NCBI RefSeq assembly: GCF_035978755.1
Contig: NZ_CP108416.1
Span: 97,413 to 161,412 of the forward strand
Source of the DNA: Streptomyces sp. NBC_01298
GTDB lineage: Bacteria > Actinomycetota > Actinomycetes > Streptomycetales > Streptomycetaceae
Length of the DNA stretch: 64,000 nucleotides
Direction of reading: 5' to 3'
In this document: positions 53,593 to 64,000 of the stretch, piece after piece
Numbering within the stretch: the stretch's first letter is position 1
Layout: each line of letters begins with the position of its first letter
The notes under the pieces: generated by a model
Database searches by the model: none
The model's input: only the letters and a program-made list of their open reading frames with translations
Told to the model about the DNA's origin: nothing
Position numbers and translations under genes: made by a program

Positions 53593-54287
53593 TCACATCA
53601 CGGACACGGCGGACGGGGCCGCCTCCTTCTCCGGATTCACCTGCAGCCGCAGGTCCACGACCCGCCCGTCCATCGCGTCCAGGTCGTAGGTCAGCGCCGC
53701 GCACGCGACTCCCCCGTGGACGAACACCACCGGCTCCTCCCCGTTGACCCGCGCGGACTCCAGGGTCACCGCCCGCAGCGCGGGCTTGGCGGGCATCCCC
53801 AGCAGCCAGCGCGCCACGTGGTCGGCAACGCGCAGCGGCCGCCGGGCCGCCGCCGTCCGACCAGGCCGTCACCTCGGGAGCGAGCAACTCCATCACCGCG
53901 TTCAGCTCCCCACCCACACATGCCGCGAGGAACCGCCGCGCCGCCTCGCCCCGTTGCCCCGGCTCGGTGGCGAACCGCGGCCGCCGGGCCTGTACATGGG
54001 CCCGGGCCGCCGGCTCCACCCGCTCCGCACCGTCGGGCACGGCCGGAAGTGAGCCGGTTCGAGGACAGATTGGTGACCGTGCGCACCAGATACGCCCTCG
54101 GGTCGAGGACGGCCGACCGGTCCGCGCGGTCCCCGTTCAACCACGCGTCCTGGAGCACGTCCTCGGCATCGACGAGGCTGCCGAGCATGCGGCAGGCGAC
54201 GTCGAACAGCACCCGCCGATGCGCGGTGAAGGGTCCGATGGCATCGGCAGGGGCTTCCGGGGCGCGGCAGCGCTCACGAACGATCAT
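53593..54287 (-). pseudogene. Decayed ECF41/SigJ-type sigma factor
   Basis: Pieces of one ECF41-type sigma factor in order but in different frames. Starting at ATG 54287 is sigma region 2 (FTAHRRVLFDVACRMLGSLV, DAEDVLQDAWLNGDRADRSA, YLVRTVTNLSSNRL). A second-frame piece below 54040 reads AHVQARRPRFATEPGQRGEA, then RFLAACVGGELNAVMELLAP. A third piece (53593-53817) carries the SnoaL-like C-terminal end from ARWLLGMPAKPALRAVTLES on. Region 4, the promoter -35 binding domain, is missing, and there are at least two frame breaks, so it cannot work. It overlaps the next gene's stop by 14 bases. Confidence 0.75.
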
Positions 54288-55197
54288 GCTGCCGCGCCGC
54301 TCCCGCCAGCGCACGCGCCCCGGCCGCGCTGCTCGCGTACGTGGGAGCCCAGCCCAGCTCACGCCGCGCCTTGGCGTTCGTCAGCCGCAGATCCGTCCCC
54401 ATGATGGTGTGCGCGAGCGGAGCCGGCTTCAGCACCCACAGCGGTACGGTCATCGGCGCGGGCGCCCCGAACGCCGCGGCCACCGCCCGCATGTGCGCGT
54501 CCCACCCCAGCGGCTCGTCGTCGACGATGTTGTACGCCTGCCCGGGCCGCCCCGACTCCACGCCGGCCACGACGGCGTTCGCCGCGTCGTCCACGTCGAC
54601 CCAACTCAGCGCCCGCCCCTTGGACGGCACCACGGGCAGGGCGCGCTTGCGCAGCATCGACACCACGTGGACATCGGTGATCCCGGCTCCGTAGAACAGC
54701 CCGAAGCGCAGGCTCACGCCCTCGATCCCGTCGGCGGTGAAGGCCAGCTCCTCCTTGGTCCGCATCGCGCCCACGTGCCGCTCCAGCCAGACGTTCGCCC
54801 CCTGCGGCCCGAAGCCGTCGTCCTCGCCGAGCACGGCCCCGCCGTGGTCCCCGTACCCGTAGCCGAACATCATCGACTCCACGACGAACCGACGCGCCCC
54901 GGTCTCCCGCGCGGCGGCCAGGAGATGGGCGGTCCCCTCGGTGCGCAGCACGTTGGTCCCCGCCATGTCCTGGTGCCGGGCCATGGTCTTCCCCGACAGC
55001 GCCGTGGCCGCGTGCACCACCACGTCGAAGCCGAGCCCGTCCACGGCCCGCAACAGGCCCTCCCGGTCGAGCAAGTCGGCCCGGACATCCATCCCGGCGC
55101 CCCGCCCGAGACCGGCGACCTCATGCCCGGCCGCACGCAGAGCCCGTACCGCCCGCTGTCCCAGAACCCCGCTCGCACCCGCCAGCAGAACCTTCAT
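54274..55197 (-). CDS. NAD-dependent epimerase/dehydratase
   Basis: 307 residues of the extended SDR type: MKVLLAGASGVLGQRAVRAL at 1-20, VVVHAATALSGKTMARHQDM near 62-81, FVVESMMFGYGYGD near 115-128 (Tyr in place of the typical YxxxK site), LPVVPSKGRALSWVDVDDAA near 195. Substrate unknown. An ECF41 sigma factor often lies next to a small oxidoreductase that it controls, which fits the decayed sigma factor at its 3' end. This is the last ordinary gene before the plasmid-maintenance module. Confidence 0.9.
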   Translation of the reverse strand: MKVLLAGASGVLGQRAVRALRAAGHEVAGLGRGAGMDVRADLLDREGLLRAVDGLGFDVVVHAATALSGKTMARHQDMAGTNVLRTEGTAHLLAAARETGARRFVVESMMFGYGYGDHGGAVLGEDDGFGPQGANVWLERHVGAMRTKEELAFTADGIEGVSLRFGLFYGAGITDVHVVSMLRKRALPVVPSKGRALSWVDVDDAANAVVAGVESGRPGQAYNIVDDEPLGWDAHMRAVAAAFGAPAPMTVPLWVLKPAPLAHTIMGTDLRLTNAKARRELGWAPTYASSAAGARALAGAARQHDRS

Positions 55198-55340: not shown

Positions 55341-55774
55341 GCGTTAACGCCGTTAATGCCCGCCCCCTCCACCAACCCCCGGCCCTCCGGCGTTAACGCC
55401 GTTAATGCCCCCACCCCACCCCACCGCGCCAAGCCCCTACGCGACTCCGGCGTTAACGCCGTTAACGCCAACCTCACCACCCGGTCCAGCTCCACCCGGC
55501 GTTAACGCCGTTAATGCCCTGCCCCACCACCGAGCCCGCCGCCCCTCCAGCGTTAACGCCGTTAATGCTTCCCACGGCCAACCCGCGAGACCCAGCCCCT
55601 CGATCGTTAACGCCGTTAATGCCCCACCGCACCGCACCGCCAACCGTCCAGGCCCACACCCTCAGCCGTTAACGCCGTTAATACCTCGCGCCTCCGCCCT
55701 CGCCCCACGCCACCTCCCCCAGCCGGGCAACGGCAGCGAACCCCCACACCACATCAAGGCGTTAACGCCGTTAA
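55341..55774. repeat. Array of eight TTAACGCCGTTAA palindromes (parS-like centromere candidate)
   Basis: Eight copies begin (as GTTAACGCCGTTAA) at 55343, 55392, 55452, 55501, 55552, 55606, 55668 and 55761; spacing is 49-62 bases, then 93. The 13-base core is invariant: arms TTAACG and CGTTAA around one central C, always in the same orientation. Spacers between are unrelated C-rich sequence. It lies 250 bases upstream of parA in the 826-base gap 55198-56023 with no gene, which is the classic place of a plasmid centromere. The rest of the gap (55780-55950) shows nothing special. Confidence 0.9.
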
Positions 55775-55963
55775 TGATCCACTTCCCCAAAAAACGCTGC
55801 CCCTGCTTCCACCTCCGCTTCGACCCGGCCCGCTCGCCCGAGTGCCGGTCCGAACCGGGCCCGTCGGCCCCGGACTCCGCACCCTCCCCGACCGGCTGAC
55901 GACGCGTCCCGGGCGGCCTCACCCCCGCCCGGGAGGCGAATCCCGGCCGATCCACACCACTCC

Positions 55964-56016
55964 GTTAGCAAAACTCAAGCGTGGTGCCCACGAACACCCT
56001 TGAACGTTAGTAAAGT
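55964..56016 (+). promoter_or_regulatory. parA promoter region with a repeated GTTAGYAAA element
   Basis: GTTAGCAAAACTC at 55964 and GTTAGTAAAGTCC at 56006 are 42 bases (four helical turns) apart. The second supplies TAAAGT (56011-56016) seven bases before the parA ATG, so the transcript is probably leaderless. The pair may be an operator for ParA or ParB. Confidence 0.5.
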
Positions 56017-56023
56017 CCCTCGC

Positions 56024-57304
56024 ATGACTTCACCCTCGTCACCGAGCGACCGCGAGAAGGTCGTCTCCAAGCTCCCTCCGTGGCTGCGCCAGGAGCTCAA
56101 GATCCGCACCGCCCAACTGAGGGTGGACATCCAGGACGCCGTCCACCAGGGCATCGCCCACTGGAGCGCGCTCGCCTCCTCCCCCTCCCCCGTCGACACC
56201 TCCGGCGCCGAGTCCTTCTCGACCTGGCTGCCCGCCGGCCAGTGGGAGTCCTTCCGCTCCGACTCCAAGGACCGCGGCGTCTCCCTCATCCAGGGACTGG
56301 CCCAAGCCGTCTCCCTCTGGCTGGAGATGAACCCGGCCCCCACCGTGATGCGGCCCTCGGTCGTGCGCCGCATCGTGGTGTGCAACCAGAAGGGCGGTGT
56401 CGGCAAGACCGCCATCACCGCCGGCACCGCCGAAGCCCTCGCGGAGGACCCGGACACCCTCCACCCGGTCCGCGTGGCCCGCCAATTGGCCCGGCTGTCG
56501 GCGACCGAGGACTCCGACCAGGCGGCCCCGGATGCCATCGCGTCCGCCACCTCCGGCCCGCCGGTAGACCTGGAAGACCTGCCCGGACTCGGCATGCGCG
56601 TCCTGCTCGTCGACTTCGACCCCCAGGGCCACCTCACCAAGCAGCTCGGCCGGCAGCCACTGCCCATCGGCGGAGACAGCCTCACCTGCCACATGGCGGG
56701 CGAGGCCAAGGGCCCCCTCGCCGACCTGATCGTCCCCATCCCGGACGAGCACTTCGGCGACCGGCTCCACATCCTCCCGGCCTGCACGGACGCGTTCCTC
56801 CTCGACGTCCGCCTCTCCACGGTCCGCGCCCGCGAGGCCGCGCTCGAACGGGCCCTCGCCCCCGTGGAGGCCGACTACGACGTCATCCTCATCGACTGCC
56901 CGCCCAGCCTCGGCCTGAGCATGGACGCCGCCATCTACTACGGCCGCCGCCGCGACGCCGAACAGCCGGGAGCCTCCGGCGCGCTGATCGTGGTCCAGGC
57001 GGAGGACTCCTCGGCGGACGCCTACGACCTCCTCACCTCCCAGATCAACGATCTCCGCGACGACCTCAGCCTCGACATCGACTACCTCGGTCTCGTCGTC
57101 AACCTCTACGACGGCCGCCGCGGTTACATCGCGACCTCCTCCCTCCAGGCCTGGATGGACATAAAGGATCCGCGCGTGGTGGCCATCGTTCCCGACCTCA
57201 AGGAACAGCGCGAAGCGGTCCGCGTGAAGCAACCGCTGTTCGTCTACGCACCCAAGGGCGAGCAGGCCGTCGCCCTGCGCGCGCTCGCAAGGGAGATCTC
57301 ATGA
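56024..57304 (+). CDS. parA: ParA-family partition ATPase
   Basis: 426 residues from ATG 56024; a TTG at 56000 would add eight. Deviant Walker A NQKGGVGKTAIT at 121-132, Walker A' VLLVDFDPQGHLTKQLG near 195-211, Walker B DVILIDCPPSLG near 290-301. An N-terminal extension of about 115 residues and a 50-residue acidic insert between Walker A and A' make it longer than chromosomal ParA (about 310-330). It acts with ParB to segregate the replicon along the nucleoid. It overlaps parB by four bases. Confidence 0.96.
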   Translation: MTSPSSPSDREKVVSKLPPWLRQELKIRTAQLRVDIQDAVHQGIAHWSALASSPSPVDTSGAESFSTWLPAGQWESFRSDSKDRGVSLIQGLAQAVSLWLEMNPAPTVMRPSVVRRIVVCNQKGGVGKTAITAGTAEALAEDPDTLHPVRVARQLARLSATEDSDQAAPDAIASATSGPPVDLEDLPGLGMRVLLVDFDPQGHLTKQLGRQPLPIGGDSLTCHMAGEAKGPLADLIVPIPDEHFGDRLHILPACTDAFLLDVRLSTVRAREAALERALAPVEADYDVILIDCPPSLGLSMDAAIYYGRRRDAEQPGASGALIVVQAEDSSADAYDLLTSQINDLRDDLSLDIDYLGLVVNLYDGRRGYIATSSLQAWMDIKDPRVVAIVPDLKEQREAVRVKQPLFVYAPKGEQAVALRALAREIS

Positions 57305-58200
57305 GCAAGGCCGACAAACTCGGAGTCTCGAGTTCCTTCGCCCGCGCCCAGCCCGTCGGCGTCAGTTCCCGCCGCGCGGCGATCGCCGAAGCCACCGGCG
57401 CCCCCACCTCCGGCGTGATCCCGCCCTCCGAGGTGCCGATCGAGGCCCTCGCCCACAACCCGTTCAACCTCCGCGAGGACCTCACGGAGCTCGAAGAGCT
57501 GGCCGCGTCCCTGACCGTCCGGGGTCAGCTCCAGCCCCTGGCGGTCGCCACCCGCATGGCCTTCATGGAGGCGCACCCCGGCAACGCCGAGGGCCTGGGC
57601 CGCGCCCCGTACGTGGTCATCGACGGCAACCGGCGCCTGGCGGCGGCCCAGCGCGCCGGCCTGCGCACCATGCAGATCCACGTCAACGACTCCCTCGCCT
57701 CCTCGGCGGCGGACATCCTGGAGTCGGCGCTCATCGCCAACGTCCACCGCGTCGACGTGGCACCCATGGACCAGGCCCGCGCCCTGCAGGAGCTCGTCGA
57801 GGTGCACGGCTCCCAGGCCCAGGTCGCCAAGCGCCTCGGCAAGACACCGGCCTGGGTCTCCCAGCGCCTGACCCTCCTCAACCTCACCCCGGAGCTCCAG
57901 GACAAGGTGGAGACCGGCGAACTCAAGGTGGAACCGGCCCGCCGCATCGGCCGCCTCCCCCAGGGGGACCAGGCGTCCGCGGCGGAGGAGGCCGTTAACG
58001 CCGTTAACCCCCCGCGCCAACGCACCCGCCCGGCCCCCGCCCCCACCCCCGAGCCCGGGCCTGAGCTCTCCCCCTCCGCGTCCCCCCGCCGCATCACCAT
58101 CGCGGCGGACTCCCCGGACACGATCGCGGACGCCCTCACCGCCCACCTCACCCCGGACGACCTGAAGGCGGTAACAGAACTCCTCCTGACCCGCATCTAA
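57301..58200 (+). CDS. parB: ParB-family centromere-binding protein
   Basis: 299 residues. N-terminal CTP-binding ParB/Srx domain: PPSEVPIEALAHNPFNLRED near 42-61, LTVRGQLQPLAV, and VIDGNRRLAAAQRAG near 105-119 (the GERR-like box is GNRR). The central KorB/HTH domain is VHGSQAQVAKRLGKTPAWVS, then QRLTLLNLTPELQDKV. A Pro/Ala-rich linker follows, then a short dimerisation end (TIADALTAHLTPDDLKAVTELL). One copy of the TTAACGCCGTTAA palindrome lies in its own coding sequence, read as VNAVN in the linker. Confidence 0.96.
   Translation: MSKADKLGVSSSFARAQPVGVSSRRAAIAEATGAPTSGVIPPSEVPIEALAHNPFNLREDLTELEELAASLTVRGQLQPLAVATRMAFMEAHPGNAEGLGRAPYVVIDGNRRLAAAQRAGLRTMQIHVNDSLASSAADILESALIANVHRVDVAPMDQARALQELVEVHGSQAQVAKRLGKTPAWVSQRLTLLNLTPELQDKVETGELKVEPARRIGRLPQGDQASAAEEAVNAVNPPRQRTRPAPAPTPEPGPELSPSASPRRITIAADSPDTIADALTAHLTPDDLKAVTELLLTRI
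57994..58007 (+). repeat. TTAACGCCGTTAA palindrome inside parB
   Basis: One exact copy, in codon phase GTT AAC GCC GTT AAC, at the start of the disordered linker of ParB, where an insertion costs least. Confidence 0.9.
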
Positions 58201-58335
58201 CCCACCCCACCCCACCCAGACCCGACCCCACTCGACACGAAGGGGGCGTTGGCCCGGTCGGACCACCATCGCCCCCACGTGTGTTTCAGGTGCGTTCCAT
58301 GGTGCGGTTCGCATAAGCTGCGCCTGGAGGTGCCC

Positions 58336-60651
58336 ATGCCCAACGCGCACGAAAACGAACAGACCTCGCTCTTCGCCGCGGTCGATGCCCTGCTGGAAGA
58401 GGCCGCGGCACAGGACGCCCTCCCGCACCCGGACGAGCGCAAGCGCCTCCGCGAGGCCGCGGGCCTGAGCCAGGACCAGATCGCACAGGCCCTGGCCGTC
58501 CGCCGCGAAACGGTCACCTCCTGGGAAACCGGCCGCACGGCCCCCCGCCCCCCGAAACGCGCCGCCTACGCCCGCCTCCTCAACGGCCTGGCAGACCTCC
58601 ACGGCATTAACGCCGTTAACGCCCCCGCCCCACCCCGGCCCGCGGCCCCTCACGCCACCCCAAGCATTAACGCCGTTAACGCCCCGCAGGCCCCCGCACC
58701 GCAGGTTGTCGTCCCTGAGGCCGAGACCCCTCAACCGGCCACCCCCGTTAACGGCGTTAACGCCGTTAACGCCACCCCCCACTCCATGGACGCCCGCCCC
58801 GAGGCCTCACCCCCGCACCCGGGGCCTGGGGCGGAGCCCCAGTTCCGGGAAGGCACGGGCAGGGCAACAGCCCCGCAGAGCCCCACCACACCCCCCACCC
58901 ACCCACACCCCGCGCCCCGCGCCCCCCACCCCCAAACGGGAGCGGGAAGGCTCACACCCCACCCGGAGGGCAACGGCCCCCTGGCCGTACTGGACGGCGC
59001 GGGCAAGGCCCACGCGGCCCACGGCGCGGTCCTTTCACCCCCCGCCACCCCCACCCTCCCCGCCCTCGTCGAATGGGCCCTCTCCCCCGCCGCCGACCTC
59101 CGCTCCCCCCGCCTCCACCGCAACGGCAAGGACGGCGACCCCCTCCTCGTCCTCACCCCCGCCGCCACCGAGGCACTCGGACTCCCCCTGGTCCTCGAAG
59201 ACCGCCGCGGCCTGCGCCTCCCCGACGACCACCCGGTCATCAAGCAGCTCACCAAGGCGAAATGGCAGCTGACCCGCCGTGGCTTCGGCCCGTGGCCCCG
59301 CATCTACCGCCCCGCCACCCCCACCACCGGCCGCCAGTGCGTCCAGCTCGCGATCCTCCCCTGGGGCGCCCTCGACCCCCGCGCCTGGGGCGAGCACACC
59401 GCCGACCTCCCCGCACCGGAACTCGCCGAGCTCCTCACCTCCTACGCGACCCGCGTCCTCACCCCCCGCGGCTCCACGGCCGTCTCGGGCCTGGAACTCA
59501 TGACGGCGCTCCGCCCGCCCACCCGCGCGGCCCGCGACGAGTCGACGAACACCTGGGTCTCCGCCCCGGTACCCGGCTCCCTGACCCGCCCCGTCGACCC
59601 CGCTCCCCCGGAGGCCCCCGACGAGCACCCGGTCGTCGCGGCCCTCTACCCCCGGTCCCACCAGCGCACCCCGGACCAGGTCCTCGACGAGGAGGCGTAC
59701 GACTGGATCCGCGACCCCCAGCTCCTCAGCGACGCCGAGTGCACCCGCACCCACGCCGTCGGCATCGACGTGAACATGGCCTTCGCCGCGGCCGCCAACC
59801 GCCTCCTCGTCGGCACCGGCCCCGCGGTCCACACCGACGGCCCCCGCTTCGACCCGAAGCTCCCCGGCTCCTGGCTGGTGGACCTCTCCGCCCAAGCCGC
59901 AGCCATGGACCCCCGGCTCCCCAGCCCCTTCACCCCGCAGGGCCTCCCGCCCACCGGCCCCGCCTGGTACGCCACTCCGACCCTCGCCTACGCCCAGGAG
60001 CTCGGCCTCACCGTCCGGCCCACCGAGGCCTGGCTCCGCCCGGAGCACGGCCCGTACCTCGACGCCTGGTACACCCGCCTGCGCGACGCCTACATGGCGA
60101 CGATGGCCGAACTCGGGGTCCACGCCTCCCTCACGGACTCCGCCTTCCTCCAAGCGATGGCGGAGTACAAGGGCGACCCCGACTCCCCCGCCCCGCAGAC
60201 AGCGGTCCTCTCCGCGATCAAGTCCACCGTCAAGGGCGGCATCGGCAAGCTCCGCGAACGCCCGCAGGGCGCCGGCTACCGCCCCGGCGAAAGCTGGCCC
60301 GCCCTCGAACGCCCCACCTGGCGCCCCGACATCCGAGCCGCCGTCATCTCCACGGCCCGAGTCAACATGCACCGCAAGATGCAGAAACTCGCGACAGCCG
60401 CGGACCTCTACCCCATCGCCGTCCTCTCCGACTGCGCGGTCTACCTCTCGAACGGCCCCAGCCCCCTCGACTTCCTCCCCCGCACCCCCGAGGGCAAGCC
60501 CCTGCCCGGCGGCTTCCGTCTCGGCGTCAGCCCCGGCATGGTCAAGCACGAGGGCACCCAACCCCTCCTCTGGGCCGTTCAACTACTCGACGAACGCCAC
60601 AACCCCGCCCGTCACATCAAGGGCCACGACGCCGCGGCCGACGGAGAGTAA
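58336..60651 (+). CDS. tap: Telomere-associated protein Tap
   Basis: 771 residues from ATG 58336 (GGAGG 7 bases upstream). An N-terminal XRE-type HTH (RKRLREAAGLSQDQIAQALA, VRRETVTSWETGRT) at 34-67 is followed by a disordered linker, about 90-215, containing INAVNA, INAVNA and VNGVNAVNA peptides. The large conserved Tap domain follows (DDHPVIKQLTKAKWQLTRRG, VGIDVNMAFAAAANRLLVGT, AYMATMAELGVHASLTDSAF). Tap binds the 3' single-stranded telomere ends of linear Streptomyces replicons and recruits the terminal protein. tpg follows after 9 bases, as in the known operon. The linker looks expanded by inserted palindromes and one dispersed hairpin. Confidence 0.95.
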   Translation: MPNAHENEQTSLFAAVDALLEEAAAQDALPHPDERKRLREAAGLSQDQIAQALAVRRETVTSWETGRTAPRPPKRAAYARLLNGLADLHGINAVNAPAPPRPAAPHATPSINAVNAPQAPAPQVVVPEAETPQPATPVNGVNAVNATPHSMDARPEASPPHPGPGAEPQFREGTGRATAPQSPTTPPTHPHPAPRAPHPQTGAGRLTPHPEGNGPLAVLDGAGKAHAAHGAVLSPPATPTLPALVEWALSPAADLRSPRLHRNGKDGDPLLVLTPAATEALGLPLVLEDRRGLRLPDDHPVIKQLTKAKWQLTRRGFGPWPRIYRPATPTTGRQCVQLAILPWGALDPRAWGEHTADLPAPELAELLTSYATRVLTPRGSTAVSGLELMTALRPPTRAARDESTNTWVSAPVPGSLTRPVDPAPPEAPDEHPVVAALYPRSHQRTPDQVLDEEAYDWIRDPQLLSDAECTRTHAVGIDVNMAFAAAANRLLVGTGPAVHTDGPRFDPKLPGSWLVDLSAQAAAMDPRLPSPFTPQGLPPTGPAWYATPTLAYAQELGLTVRPTEAWLRPEHGPYLDAWYTRLRDAYMATMAELGVHASLTDSAFLQAMAEYKGDPDSPAPQTAVLSAIKSTVKGGIGKLRERPQGAGYRPGESWPALERPTWRPDIRAAVISTARVNMHRKMQKLATAADLYPIAVLSDCAVYLSNGPSPLDFLPRTPEGKPLPGGFRLGVSPGMVKHEGTQPLLWAVQLLDERHNPARHIKGHDAAADGE
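58606..58769 (+). repeat. Three TTAACGCCGTTAA palindromes inside tap
   Basis: Cores begin at 58607, 58667 and 58757 (all in the phase xTT AAC GCC GTT AAC). The third overlaps a reverse-centre copy (TTAACGGCGTTAA, from 58748) to give 24 bases of continuous palindrome. The first two are preceded by A instead of G, so the peptides read I-N-A-V-N-A. Confidence 0.9.
58826..58842. repeat. Dispersed Streptomyces hairpin (CTGGGGC-GGA-GCCCCAG) inside tap
   Basis: The stem, followed by TTCCGGGAAGG, resembles the GGGGCGGAGCCCC...TTCGGGAAGGGG element common between Streptomyces genes. Here it is translated in the Tap linker without breaking the frame. Confidence 0.6.
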
Positions 60652-60660
60652 GAGCCACCC

Positions 60661-61215
60661 ATGTCCGAGATCAGCGACAGCCTCGACCGCGCCGACGAAC
60701 AGAACTTCACCCGTCCCATCCCCAAATCGGCCGGCGCCCAAATCCGATACCTCGTCAAACAGCTCAAATCAACCAAGGCCGTGGCCGACCTCCTCGCCAT
60801 CTCCCGGCGCACGGTCGAGCGGTACGTGAAGGACCAGATCAAACAGCCCAAGCCGGCCCTCTCCGCCCGCCTGGAGCGCGAGGTGCGCCGCCGCTGGCAG
60901 CCCCTGGTCCGCAAGCGCGCCCGCGACAAGGCCGCGAAGCAGACCGGGCTGGTCATCGAGACCCGCGCCCGCTTCGGCTTCAGCGCGGCCCCCGGCACCA
61001 CCGACGACGGCCGGATGCGCCGCATCACCCAGCACCTCCCCCCGGAGTACGCCTCCCGCCTCTTCAGCGCCCACGAGGCCGGAGCCTCCGAAGCCCAGCT
61101 CCGCGGCATCACCGCCGAAGGGCTCCAGGAGATCTACTTCAAGGACAACGGCGCCCGCGCCCAGGGCCTCCTGGTCGAGTTCACCGACATCGACTACGTG
61201 GAGCTCAACTTCTAG
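60661..61215 (+). CDS. tpg: Telomere terminal protein Tpg
   Basis: 184 residues, exactly the usual Tpg length (184-185). An HTH lies at about 38-60 (KAVADLLAISRRTVERYVKD), followed by basic helices (ARLEREVRRRWQPLVRKRAR). Thr114 is present in PGTTDDGRMR; as I recall, Thr114 is the residue deoxynucleotidylated in characterised Tpg proteins. Tpg stays covalently on the 5' ends and primes end patching of linear replicons. It forms an operon with tap. Confidence 0.96.
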   Translation: MSEISDSLDRADEQNFTRPIPKSAGAQIRYLVKQLKSTKAVADLLAISRRTVERYVKDQIKQPKPALSARLEREVRRRWQPLVRKRARDKAAKQTGLVIETRARFGFSAAPGTTDDGRMRRITQHLPPEYASRLFSAHEAGASEAQLRGITAEGLQEIYFKDNGARAQGLLVEFTDIDYVELNF

Positions 61216-61337
61216 AAACCGGACAACGCCCCCCGCAAAGCAGCAGGGGGCAACTTGTCAACGGCACCGAGGGCACCGTGGCCAATTCCCACCCCCGAGC
61301 CCTTCCAAGCCCCCCTGAGCCCCTCAGCCAACACAAA

Positions 61338-61361
61338 GGGCCCCGGAGTGCTCCGGGGCCC
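61338..61361. terminator. Bidirectional terminator between tpg and the RepL-like genes
   Basis: GGGCCCCGGAG-TG-CTCCGGGGCCC, an 11-bp perfect stem with a 2-base loop between convergent genes. Confidence 0.75.
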
Positions 61362-61408
61362 CCACAAGCCCCTGAGCACCCCTCAGAAGCCCTGCAAACA
61401 CCACTCAC

Positions 61409-61882
61409 TCAGCCAACCGCGTGCAGCGCCCTACGCCGCTTCGACTCAGCCGCCTTCTTGGCGACGGCCTGAGCCGCCCGCTTCTTGCGCTGCTCGGCGA
61501 GCTGGTCCTGATACGCCGCCACTGCCCGGTGGTAGCTGGCCACATAGCCCCGAGCGTCCAGCCGCTCCTCCGCGTCCATCTCGTTCACGGCCGCGACCGC
61601 ATCCTCGAACGAGGTGTAACCGGCGAGCATCGGGTTGATCTGGTAGACCCCGTTCCGGATCTTCCTGACCAACTTCGCCAGTTCCAGGCTCCGCAGCGCG
61701 GCGTTCACGCTCGGCCGGCTCAGGTCCAGCATCCCGCCGACCGTCGCCTGGTCGATGAGGATCCGCCCGCCCGGCTCGCTGAGCGAGCGCAACTTCAGCA
61801 ACACCCGGTACGCCGCCGGAGGCAGGTCGAGGTCGGAGAGCAGCCCGTCTGCGTTGACCGCAGCGAATCGCAAGGTACTCAC
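61409..61882 (-). CDS. RepL-like winged-helix protein (short)
   Basis: 157 residues. A winged helix covers about 20-85: LPPAAYRVLLKLRSLSEPGG, VGGMLDLSRPSVNAALRSLE, LAKLVRKIRNGVYQINPMLA. The wing ending GVYQINP is typical for RepL-type plasmid initiators and shared with the neighbouring 238-residue protein. A basic coiled-coil tail (AEQRKKRAAQAVAKKAAESKRRRALH) could bind DNA. It overlaps the upstream gene by four bases. Replication or copy-control role is inferred from fold and position. Confidence 0.75.
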   Translation of the reverse strand: MSTLRFAAVNADGLLSDLDLPPAAYRVLLKLRSLSEPGGRILIDQATVGGMLDLSRPSVNAALRSLELAKLVRKIRNGVYQINPMLAGYTSFEDAVAAVNEMDAEERLDARGYVASYHRAVAAYQDQLAEQRKKRAAQAVAKKAAESKRRRALHAVG

Positions 61883-62595
61883 TGAGCCGTCCCTTCTCCC
61901 GTGCGCTTCGTCCGGCTCACCCGACGCGCAGCGCGCTCTCTTGCCCGTTCGGCCCGCAGTTCCGCGATGGCCTGCCTCATGTGGTCCAGCGAGGGGAAGC
62001 GCACCAGGTCCGGCAGGCTCGTATCGCTACGAATCTGCGAGATGGTCCCGTGCTGCTCCACCTTCACGAACTCACCCGTCATCTCGGTACCCGGGATGAA
62101 CTCCGCTACCCGGTAACTGTAGGGCGGGTTGAACTGATAGACACCCCGCCGCACCTTGAAGACGATCCCATGAGACATCACCGTGTGCAGAGCTTCCGAC
62201 GTCTTCGTCCGACTGACATCCAGGATGGTAGCCATCTCCTCCTGGGTAAGTGGAATCCGCCCCCCCGCCCGCTGGCAGGCGATGAGCAGCAGGATCAGCC
62301 GCAGAGGCAGCGCTTCGCGGAAGTACTGGGCGATCACGAGGAAGAACTCGAGGCTGTCCATCGAGAACGCATTCGGCTGATTCTCGGTCCCGTAGAACTC
62401 CAGCGGCTTGCGCTCACCGTCCAAGGTCAGCTTCCGCGTGGGGTACCGCTTCGCGAGGCTGTCCAGATCCTTGACCGGAGCCAGGGGCTGACTCCACGCG
62501 GAGATCGCATCGTCCACCGGCAGATCGGGACGCGGGGTCCCTACCGGATTGCCCCGGCGGCGCTGTGGCTCTGATGACACGAGGCTGCTCTCCAC
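61879..62595 (-). CDS. RepL-like replication initiator candidate
   Basis: 238 residues from GTG 62595. Central winged helix at about 100-165: ALPLRLILLLIACQRAGGRI, PLTQEEMATILDVSRTKTSE, ALHTVMSHGIVFKVRRGVYQ, FNPPYSY. The same GVYQxNP wing as its partner shows they are paralogues. The basic C terminus (RAERARERAARRVSRTKR) may contact DNA. It is transcribed from the inverted-repeat-rich region at 62600-62900, an arrangement expected of an initiator beside its origin. Related RepL genes are known from Streptomyces linear plasmids such as pSLA2-L, from memory. Confidence 0.75.
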   Translation of the reverse strand: MESSLVSSEPQRRRGNPVGTPRPDLPVDDAISAWSQPLAPVKDLDSLAKRYPTRKLTLDGERKPLEFYGTENQPNAFSMDSLEFFLVIAQYFREALPLRLILLLIACQRAGGRIPLTQEEMATILDVSRTKTSEALHTVMSHGIVFKVRRGVYQFNPPYSYRVAEFIPGTEMTGEFVKVEQHGTISQIRSDTSLPDLVRFPSLDHMRQAIAELRAERARERAARRVSRTKRTGEGTAQ

Positions 62596-62600
62596 TCCGT

Positions 62601-62904
62601 TGATCTGCGGAGATCAGTATGTCAACAAGGGTGACACAAGTGTCACGCTCGTTGACGTTCGGCGTGTCTTGTGTCCCCTCACAGGTGACATATCTCAGCC
62701 ACACACCCCCCGGACCCCCTCCCGACCCTCCCCGGCCAACCGCACCCACCCCACCACCAGTTAGCCGGCAGATCTCCCCCCATACGTCAGCCCCGCCGAC
62801 GTTTTAGCGCATTTTACGTCAGTACCACTGACATTTTGCAGTCGTTGTGTCCCCCTAGCAGCGACACAACACCCGAGATATGTCCCTCCTGAGGGGACAT
62901 ATCT
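62601..62904. other. Inverted-repeat-rich non-coding region, candidate replication origin
   Basis: Five inverted repeats: TGATCT-GCGG-AGATCA (62601-62616); GTGACAC-AA-GTGTCAC (62631-62646), itself flanked by GTCAAC and GTTGAC (62621, 62651); GTCAGT-ACC-ACTGAC (62818-62832); GTTGTGTC...GACACAAC (62844-62870); and AGATATGTCCC-N7-GGGACATATCT (62876-62904). TGACA/TGTCA and GACATATCT units recur in both halves. The DNA is more AT-rich than the surroundings. It sits directly upstream of the RepL-like genes and 1.1 kb from the window end; no coding sequence is convincing. Confidence 0.6.
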
Positions 62905-63155
62905 TTTCCCCCGTACCCCCTCTGACCTGCAACGACGCATCTCCGTACCTTCTATAGGCCGGTGGACGCTCCCGCCCAAGCTTTAAACACCGTCTCAACC
63001 CGCACGCAAGACCTCCCATCCGCCCCAAAAACCACCCCCTCCCCAAGCCCGCCCACCCCACCGGAACCCCTCGCTCCTCAGCCACAACCCCGCAGAATCT
63101 GACTGATTCCCATCTCTATCCACCCATCATTTTGAAGCAGCCCTCATCTACAACC

Positions 63156-63202
63156 CTTAACGCCGTTAACAACCCACTCAGCAGACCCGTTAACGCCGTT
63201 AA
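63156..63202 (+). repeat. Two TTAACGCCGTTAA palindromes on the telomere side of the rep genes
   Basis: Cores begin at 63157 and 63190, 33 bases apart, in the same orientation as all others. The bases 63203-63560 between them and the terminal palindromes contain no gene or structure I can support. Confidence 0.9.
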
Positions 63203-63562: not shown

Positions 63563-64000
63563 CTCCGGAGCGAAGCGGAGGGGCCCTCTCGCGAAGCGCG
63601 AGGCACCAGGCCGCAAAGCGGCCTCCGCCGAACTCAGCCGGCAGCTTCAGTCCGAAGCGCTTCGGTACCCCTTGGCCCAAAGCTCCCAGCCCCGGAGCGA
63701 AGCGGAGGGGTCCCCTCGCGAAGCGAGAGGCTCTGGGCCGCAAAGCGGCCCCCACCGGTGGAGCGCAGCGGAACCGGTGGCAGTCCAGAGCAAAGCGCAG
63801 GACTCCGGGCCGAAGGCCCGGCTATGACTCGGAGCGAAGCGGAGAGGCAAGCCCGAAGGGCCTCGCCCGAGCGCAGCCAGGGCCTTCGGTCCTGAGCGCG
63901 CAGCGCTCAGGTACCCGCTCCGAAGGAGCGGGCTCTAGCTGCGCTCAGCGCAGCCCGCCGAGCGCAGCGAGGCGGTTCTAGTCCCCAGCGCGCAGCGCTG
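63563..64000. repeat. Telomere-type dense palindromes with three-base loops
   Basis: At least fourteen close inverted repeats, most with GAA, GCA, AAA or AAG loops. Examples: CTCGCG-AAG-CGCGAG (63588-63602), GGCCGC-AAA-GCGGCC (63609-63623), GGGCCGC-AAA-GCGGCCC (63735-63751), CCGGGCC-GAA-GGCCCGG (63805-63821), CCTGAGCGC-GCA-GCGCTCAGG (63891-63911), CCCGCTCC-GAA-GGAGCGGG (63914-63932), CAGCGC-GCA-GCGCTG (63986-64000). This is the structure of Streptomyces telomere ends, which fold back during end patching. The last palindrome touches the window edge, so the true tip may lie beyond. Confidence 0.85.

Follow-up and report, generated by a model that had tools for sequence, protein, structure and literature searches.

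The window analysed here is a stretch of 64,000 nucleotides from Streptomyces sp. NBC_01298 (assembly GCF_035978755.1, contig NZ_CP108416.1, positions 97,413 to 161,412 of the forward strand), and it ends at the end of that contig, which we call C3 (161,412 bases). Close to this end lie the partition genes parA and parB, the telomere genes tap and tpg, two small genes for winged helix-turn-helix (HTH) proteins, and, dispersed among them, a 13-base-pair (bp) palindrome, TTAACGCCGTTAA. The palindrome occurs in 15 exact copies, 14 in forward and one in reverse orientation, all within positions 55344-63202. Sequence comparisons make it very probable that this palindrome is parS, the site of the plasmid's own ParB, and that it forms a dispersed centromere that has been expanded in most members of a clade of related plasmids. 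The features of the region are the following.

54274-55197, minus strand: NAD-dependent epimerase-like gene, flanking the eight-site array
55344-55774, plus strand: eight exact 13-bp sites (starting at 55344, 55393, 55453, 55502, 55553, 55607, 55669 and 55762), spaced 49-93 bp, between the epimerase-like gene and parA
56024-57304, plus strand: parA, Walker ATPase (domain matches AAA_31 and CbiA), overlapping the start of parB
57301-58200, plus strand: parB, 299 amino acids (domain matches ParB_N and HTH_ParB)
57931-57933, plus strand: codon of ParB residue E211, which aligns with Caulobacter ParB G201 and co-varies with base 6 of the half-site (from the alignment)
57995-58007, plus strand: site within parB (exact match), encoding VNAVN after the HTH
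58336-60651, plus strand: tap, telomere-associated protein, 771 amino acids (NF047542, 1008.8 bits)
58607-58619, plus strand: site within the tap linker (exact match)
58667-58679, plus strand: site within the tap linker (exact match)
58748-58769, no strand: 22-bp composite in tap, itself palindromic, in which a reverse site (58748-58760) and a forward site (58757-58769) share 4 bp
60661-61215, plus strand: tpg, terminal protein (NF047541, 298.7 bits)
61409-61882, minus strand: small winged-HTH protein, likely a replication gene (matches below Pfam cut-offs)
61879-62595, minus strand: second winged-HTH protein, likely a replication gene (domain search and distribution of the gene pair in relatives)
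62596-63156, no strand: non-coding DNA containing several short repeats, both direct and inverted, a possible replication origin
63157-63169, plus strand: site on the plasmid-end side of the two small HTH genes (exact match)
63190-63202, plus strand: last site, likewise on the plasmid-end side of the small HTH gene pair (exact match)
63831-63998, no strand: telomere-like end, an inverted copy of the opposite contig end (171 bp, 86%)

A preliminary description of this DNA had listed 14 copies, eight upstream of parA, one in parB, three in tap and two past the rep genes, always in one orientation. The groups upstream of parA, in parB and past the rep genes were borne out, and tap was found to hold four copies, the overlooked one being the reverse copy at 58748. 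Nor is a single orientation a rule, because the centre base varies among 38 related loci (C in 318 sites, G in 153 and A in 2). That chance would not produce the repeat, as had been stated, agrees with our search of the window: allowing up to two mismatches, we obtained 31 strand-matches against 0.10 expected from shuffles, and outside the cluster only position 25431 matches, with two mismatches. A count over the replicon and the host chromosome had also been suggested. In the whole genome (9,695,021 bases, five contigs), the exact word occurs in the same 15 copies, all on C3 inside the window, and in none on the chromosome; the reversed pattern, used as a control, gave no match. The repeat, a 13-bp TTAACGnCGTTAA, does not match the chromosomal parS consensus GTTTCACGTGAAAC either, as the same description had noted.

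Several features by which a type I ParABS system is recognized are present. The Walker ATPase gene lies immediately 5' of parB with a 4-bp overlap; ParB carries the expected domains (PF02195, 5.8e-08; PF17762, 9e-14; TIGR00180, above cut-off); the 15 palindromic sites are gathered around parAB and not spread over the genome; and, as described below, site specificity tracks the DNA-contact residues of ParB, although the independence of this relation on the tree is weakly tested.

Ten of the 15 sites are in non-coding DNA. The five sites in coding sequence share one reading frame and encode (V/I)N(A/G)VN. Under the motif, isoleucine is encoded by ATT in 2/2 cases and valine by GTT in 7/7, as against 0/55 and 3/100, respectively, elsewhere in parA, parB, tap and tpg. 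These otherwise avoided codons indicate, therefore, that it is the DNA word that is kept, and not the peptide. The sites in tap fall where the gene encodes a segment rich in proline and alanine that follows the N-terminal HTH, a low-complexity, probably disordered linker. In eight relatives, this linker contains between zero and eight sites; Tap is 792-916 amino acids long in the four with six to eight sites and 721-773 in the four with zero to two (the window Tap, with four sites, has 771), but length is not strictly tied to site number, since Tap of locus L053 (two sites) is shorter than that of L056 (none).

We then analyzed the distribution of the palindrome in relatives, using an initial set of 17 plasmid ParB loci and 79 more loci from a scan of genome contigs. 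The word TTAACGSCGTTAA is present in 16 of the first 17 loci, and the remaining one (L063) carries TTAACCnGGTTAA three times. The close clade, defined by a ParB at least 73% identical to that of the window, comprises 38 loci, 36 of which differ by DNA (L076 repeats L057, and L190 repeats L070). These loci contain 2-26 copies each, with at least six in 33/38 and at least one inside parB in 33/38. More distant are 34 loci (33 different by DNA) whose ParB also has E211 and whose sites are of the TTAAC(G) type; they contain only 2-5 copies, all within parB in 31/34, and SLP2 of S. lividans belongs to this few-site kind. The comparison with close ParB homologues proposed in the preliminary description thus shows the word recurring near close parAB genes and inside parB of more distant ones. 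Whole-record counts for 11 plasmids range from 2 to 20. In three of them, all sites (8, 17 and 20) are at the par-tap end of the record, and in two others 14/15 and 14/16 are; in the five many-site records listed fully, NZ_CP097323 has one stray distant site and NZ_CP102510 has two. In pSMg1-1, 17/18 sites are grouped about 76-81 kilobases (kb) from the nearer record end. We propose that most clade members have multiplied their centromere relative to the 2-5 sites of SLP2-type relatives, with sites invading the tap linker and the rep-side region.

The overlap seen at 58748-58769 is a recurrent arrangement. Among 473 sites of 38 clade loci (L085 included, L190 left out), 203 are in pairs shifted by exactly 9 bp with the TTAA in common; such pairs were found in 30/38 loci, and in 67 of the 105 pairs the centres complete a 22-bp palindrome. 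No pair of this kind was found among 127 sites in 45 other TTAACS loci. Two HTHs could hardly occupy the shared TTAA simultaneously. As to helical phasing of the site spacing, Rayleigh R values of 0.25-0.34 were obtained (199 distances, 38 loci), from which nothing is drawn because the loci are closely related and codons tie down many of the sites.

The evidence that links the palindrome most directly to ParB is covariation. We assembled 139 ParB loci (the window, contig C4 of the same genome, 28 plasmid stretches, 79 genome-contig loci and 30 further genome stretches), four of which repeat the DNA of another (L057/L076, L070/L190, L085/L191 and L091/L192). For each locus, the most over-represented palindrome at most 3 kb from parB was called blind to base 6 and to the centre. 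At a score of at least 7.5, an acidic residue 211 goes with G6 in 81/81 loci (L056 being entered as E from the annotated gene) and a basic residue with C6 in 29/31, the exceptions being L105 and L211. G at 211 with A6 corresponds to the classic chromosomal site, of which L219 is the sole example in the set. In L183 and L202, which have A at 211, the sites are of the form TTTTAC-SnS-GTAAAA, without symmetric preference at base 6.

Lowering the score to at least 6.5 gives 131 loci, and 124 remain after omission of L056 (no HTH in the aligned row), L105, L211, L215, L216, L218 and L219; of these omitted loci, L105, L211, L215 and L216 are exceptions, L219 represents the chromosomal type, and L056 and L218 follow the rule. 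In these 124, E occurs with G in 82 and D with G in 8 (90/90 for E/D), K with C in 18 and with a mixed base in one, R with C in 11 and with a mixed base in two (29/32 for K/R), and A with a mixed base in 2/2. Two more positions behave similarly. Residue 183 relates to base 1 (Q with A in 16/16, S with C in 3/3, and the remainder with T except one with G), and residue 184 to base 3 (G with T in 20/20, A with A in 89/92, P with A in 6/6). Keeping one row per distinct HTH sequence (107 rows) gives the same pattern. Of the 299 window-numbered columns, column 211 alone assigns all 121 unmixed rows, two of which (L215 and L216) stand as their own small-residue class; it yields 0.780 bits, which is the full entropy, and the runner-up yields 0.465. 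In a gap-free alignment, the counterparts of window residues 183 and 211 are R173 and G201 of Caulobacter ParB, following the numbering given in the relevant passages of PMC7383237. Because these are the top-scoring columns for bases 1 and 6 and also the published contacts, the two bases pick out known contact residues from sequence alone.

In a tree from which the HTH columns were excluded (130 rows, with poor support for 47 of the 120 inner branches), the residue class changes at least eight times and base 6 nine times (eight without L105). There are eight independent pairs on the best tree and three on strongly supported branches, where on average 2.9/3 are concordant (3/3 without L105). 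These contrasts are consistent with the code but are not significant alone. The genome itself offers another example: the ParB on contig C4 is 58% identical to that of the window, has R at the switch position and has the site TTTACCnGGTAAA twice, as the rule predicts. Because the C4 ParB has R and a C6 site, the C3 and C4 ParBs should not bind each other's sites.

The proposal in the preliminary description that the repeat is the binding site of this plasmid's ParB, forming a dispersed centromere, is thus supported by its absence from the chromosome, its recurrence with parAB and its covariation with the contact residues. In the mechanism that we infer, ParB dimers would read the palindrome through their HTH, one half-site TTAACG per subunit, with residue 183 pairing with base 1, residue 184 with base 3 and E211 with G6. 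The array would offer many loading sites over about 8 kb, from which ParB would slide along the DNA as cytidine triphosphate (CTP) clamps and recruit ParA, which would move the plasmid copies apart; more sites would give firmer partition.

A number of observations weigh against this interpretation. In five of the 38 close loci, parB contains no site, and L051 (NZ_CP034352) has only two sites in its entire 313-kb record. In pSA3239, 13/15 sites are close to tap and separated from parAB by at least 27 kb: these 13 accompany tap and the rep pair at 0.9-8.4 kb, and the other two lie at 38.6 kb near parA. Here, parAB has moved. Within the covariation set, a GC-rich repeat outscored two copies of TTAACC in L105 (K at 211), the best nearby palindrome of L211 (R at 211) is GACGGATATCCGTC, which may not be its parS, and L215 and L216 pair A with G6, in a doubtful alignment. 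The three basic rows with a mixed base 6 also depart from the rule; of the 21 loci below a score of 7.5, 14 fit it and seven have no clear site, and one more locus has no call. On the tree, only three switches fall on strongly supported branches, which is too few for a sign test (p cannot reach 0.05). Finally, Streptomyces chromosomes carry a very similar palindrome flanked by a tetR-like and a monooxygenase-like gene.

The last of these observations raises the question of whether a TetR-family regulator uses the copies as its operators. In a survey of the genus, the exact word was found in 110/392 genomes (the reversed control in 10), 18 of which, that of the window included, have at least eight copies; on other Streptomyces chromosomes, it occurs singly or in twos and threes. 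We sampled 30 such loci, one per genome: 24 align mutually over the site, four have parB or tap, and the other two are L019 and L034. Three of the aligned loci were inspected, and in all of them the site lies between a tetR-like gene and an FAD monooxygenase gene. At a similar place, the host chromosome has two copies of TTAACGCTGTTAA, flanked by genes whose products carry TetR and FAD_binding_3 domains, and a tetR/FAD-monooxygenase pair is found near the array in some clade plasmids (L053 and L055). However, no tetR gene was found beside the array of the window, the neighbours of which are the epimerase-like gene and parA. Moreover, sites are present within parB, within tap and beyond rep, they are confined to parB in 31/34 of the more distant loci, and the word tracks ParB residues across Actinobacteria. 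It is therefore extremely unlikely that the copies in the window are TetR operators. Because 24/30 align mutually and the three inspected adjoin a tetR-like gene, the isolated chromosomal copies, within this sample, are for the most part TetR-type operators that use a similar word, and they are not evidence against parS. The host copies form a double site with a separation of 39 bp, and the TetR and FAD-monooxygenase genes on either side are divergent (L149, 2297-2360; G000:C1, about 8686796-8686847). Given that exact TTAACGCCGTTAA occurs at similar places elsewhere, the plasmid ParB and this chromosomal TetR might read each other's sites.

Sites in tap and beside the putative origin, together with the pSA3239 array, could also be taken to serve Tap, Tpg or the replication proteins in a telomere or origin function instead of ParB. 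We regard this as very unlikely, as the word co-varies with ParB; in addition, tap of L056 is without a site whereas sites are present upstream of parA, tap on contig C4 has no exact TTAACGCCGTTAA, and the sole two sites in the SLP2 stretch are inside parB. The common frame of the five coding sites would be accounted for if the repeat were a protein-level feature, a VNAVN or INAVN peptide in Tap and ParB, but the ten non-coding sites and the spelling of the motif's isoleucine and valine codons, in 9/9 cases nearly absent elsewhere in these genes, leave this explanation with almost no probability.

Because its ends match as an inverted repeat, contig C3 looks like a complete linear plasmid; 798 bp separate the last site from the end of the contig. 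The statement in the preliminary description that the centromere is next to the telomere applies to the window in this sense, but it is not general: the sites of pSMg1-1 are 76-81 kb inward, and parAB of pSA3239 is separated from most of its sites. Both tap and tpg exceed the NCBIfam model cut-offs. Full-length tap and tpg above curated cut-offs were found only on the plasmid-sized contigs C3 and C4 and not on the 9.0-megabase chromosome contig C1, and the host chromosome may depend on plasmid telomere genes. Such reliance has reportedly been described for S. rochei. In 7/11 clade plasmids (L047, L050, L053, L054, L055, L058 and L059), parB is followed by a tap-sized gene and a tpg-sized HTH gene. 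The two small winged-HTH genes are probably the replication genes; all six clade plasmids of type rep_cluster_1789 that were compared have such a pair, and in five clade plasmids without this type none was seen in the stretches covered.

On a broader scale, we lean, by a narrow balance, towards the view that actinobacterial plasmid ParBs use a modular three-contact code (183 to base 1, 184 to base 3, 211 to base 6), which would make parS and plasmid cohabitation predictable from the ParB sequence, and that the clade centromere has mostly grown to 6-26 sites via the telomere-protein gene, partly as 22-bp double sites that maybe load ParB in an undescribed way. With such a residue-to-base rule, ParB sequences could be converted into predicted centromeres and predicted compatibility groups, and the clade shows a centromere growing within protein-coding genes. 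In a literature search of open-licence PMC papers, the motif string was not found; titles and abstract starts in the same collection contained no report of the acidic-residue/G6 rule, which is weak evidence of novelty. As far as the literature was searched, the clade motif family, the numbers of up to 26 sites, the spread into tap, the 9-bp double sites and the acidic-211/G6 and 184/base-3 pairings are new.

A short parS on a Streptomyces linear plasmid is of a kind already known. Plasmid partition systems of Streptomyces are termed poorly characterised by the authors of the work on SCP1, the linear plasmid of S. coelicolor, and the passages of that paper considered here report two ParBs using 13-bp and 15-19-bp inverted repeats, three each, by chromatin immunoprecipitation sequencing (ChIP-seq) and binding (PMC13245405). 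The 13-bp repeat belongs to ParB1 and occurs in three copies around the operon, the methods text mentioning a site inside parB1; CTP-dependent sliding and destabilisation of the plasmid upon loss of par were also shown (PMC13245405). On the basis of these passages, the window resembles SCP1 parABS1 and parABS2 in being on a Streptomyces linear plasmid and in having a type-I HTH ParB, a short inverted-repeat parS (13 bp for parS1) and a copy inside parB, and it differs in having 15 sites instead of three per system. From the residue numbers given there for ParB1 (G108-S-S-R), the letters of SCP1 parS1 would be of the ATTACGnCGTAAT type. The par locus of SLP2 (NC_004933, L048) is like that of the window in its exact TTAACGSCGTTAA, its recognition helix GKTPAWVSQRL and its E at 211, and unlike it in having two exact sites, both inside parB, and no array or tap copies in the 38.9 of 50.4 kb covered.

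Streptomycete chromosomes have 11-65 predicted parS sites, according to the part of PMC8743542 that deals with them. The chromosomal Streptomyces parS, GTTTCACGTGAAAC in the preliminary description, is, like the window repeat, a centromere read by an HTH ParB; it differs in being a 14-bp even palindrome with A at base 6 and G at residue 201, as judged from one example (L219). In the ParB and Noc structures, residue 173 contacts base 1, and an arginine of Noc (201 in ParB numbering) contacts the guanine opposite C6 (passages of PMC7383237). The pairings of arginine 201 with C6 and of glutamine 173 with A1 in our set agree with the ParB-parS/Noc-NBS code of Jalal et al. (2020; PMC7383237), which assigns base 1 to residue 173 and base 6 to residue 201. 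Beyond the passages of that work that set out the code, the present set adds E/D with G6, A without preference, and residue 184 (Caulobacter 174) with base 3.

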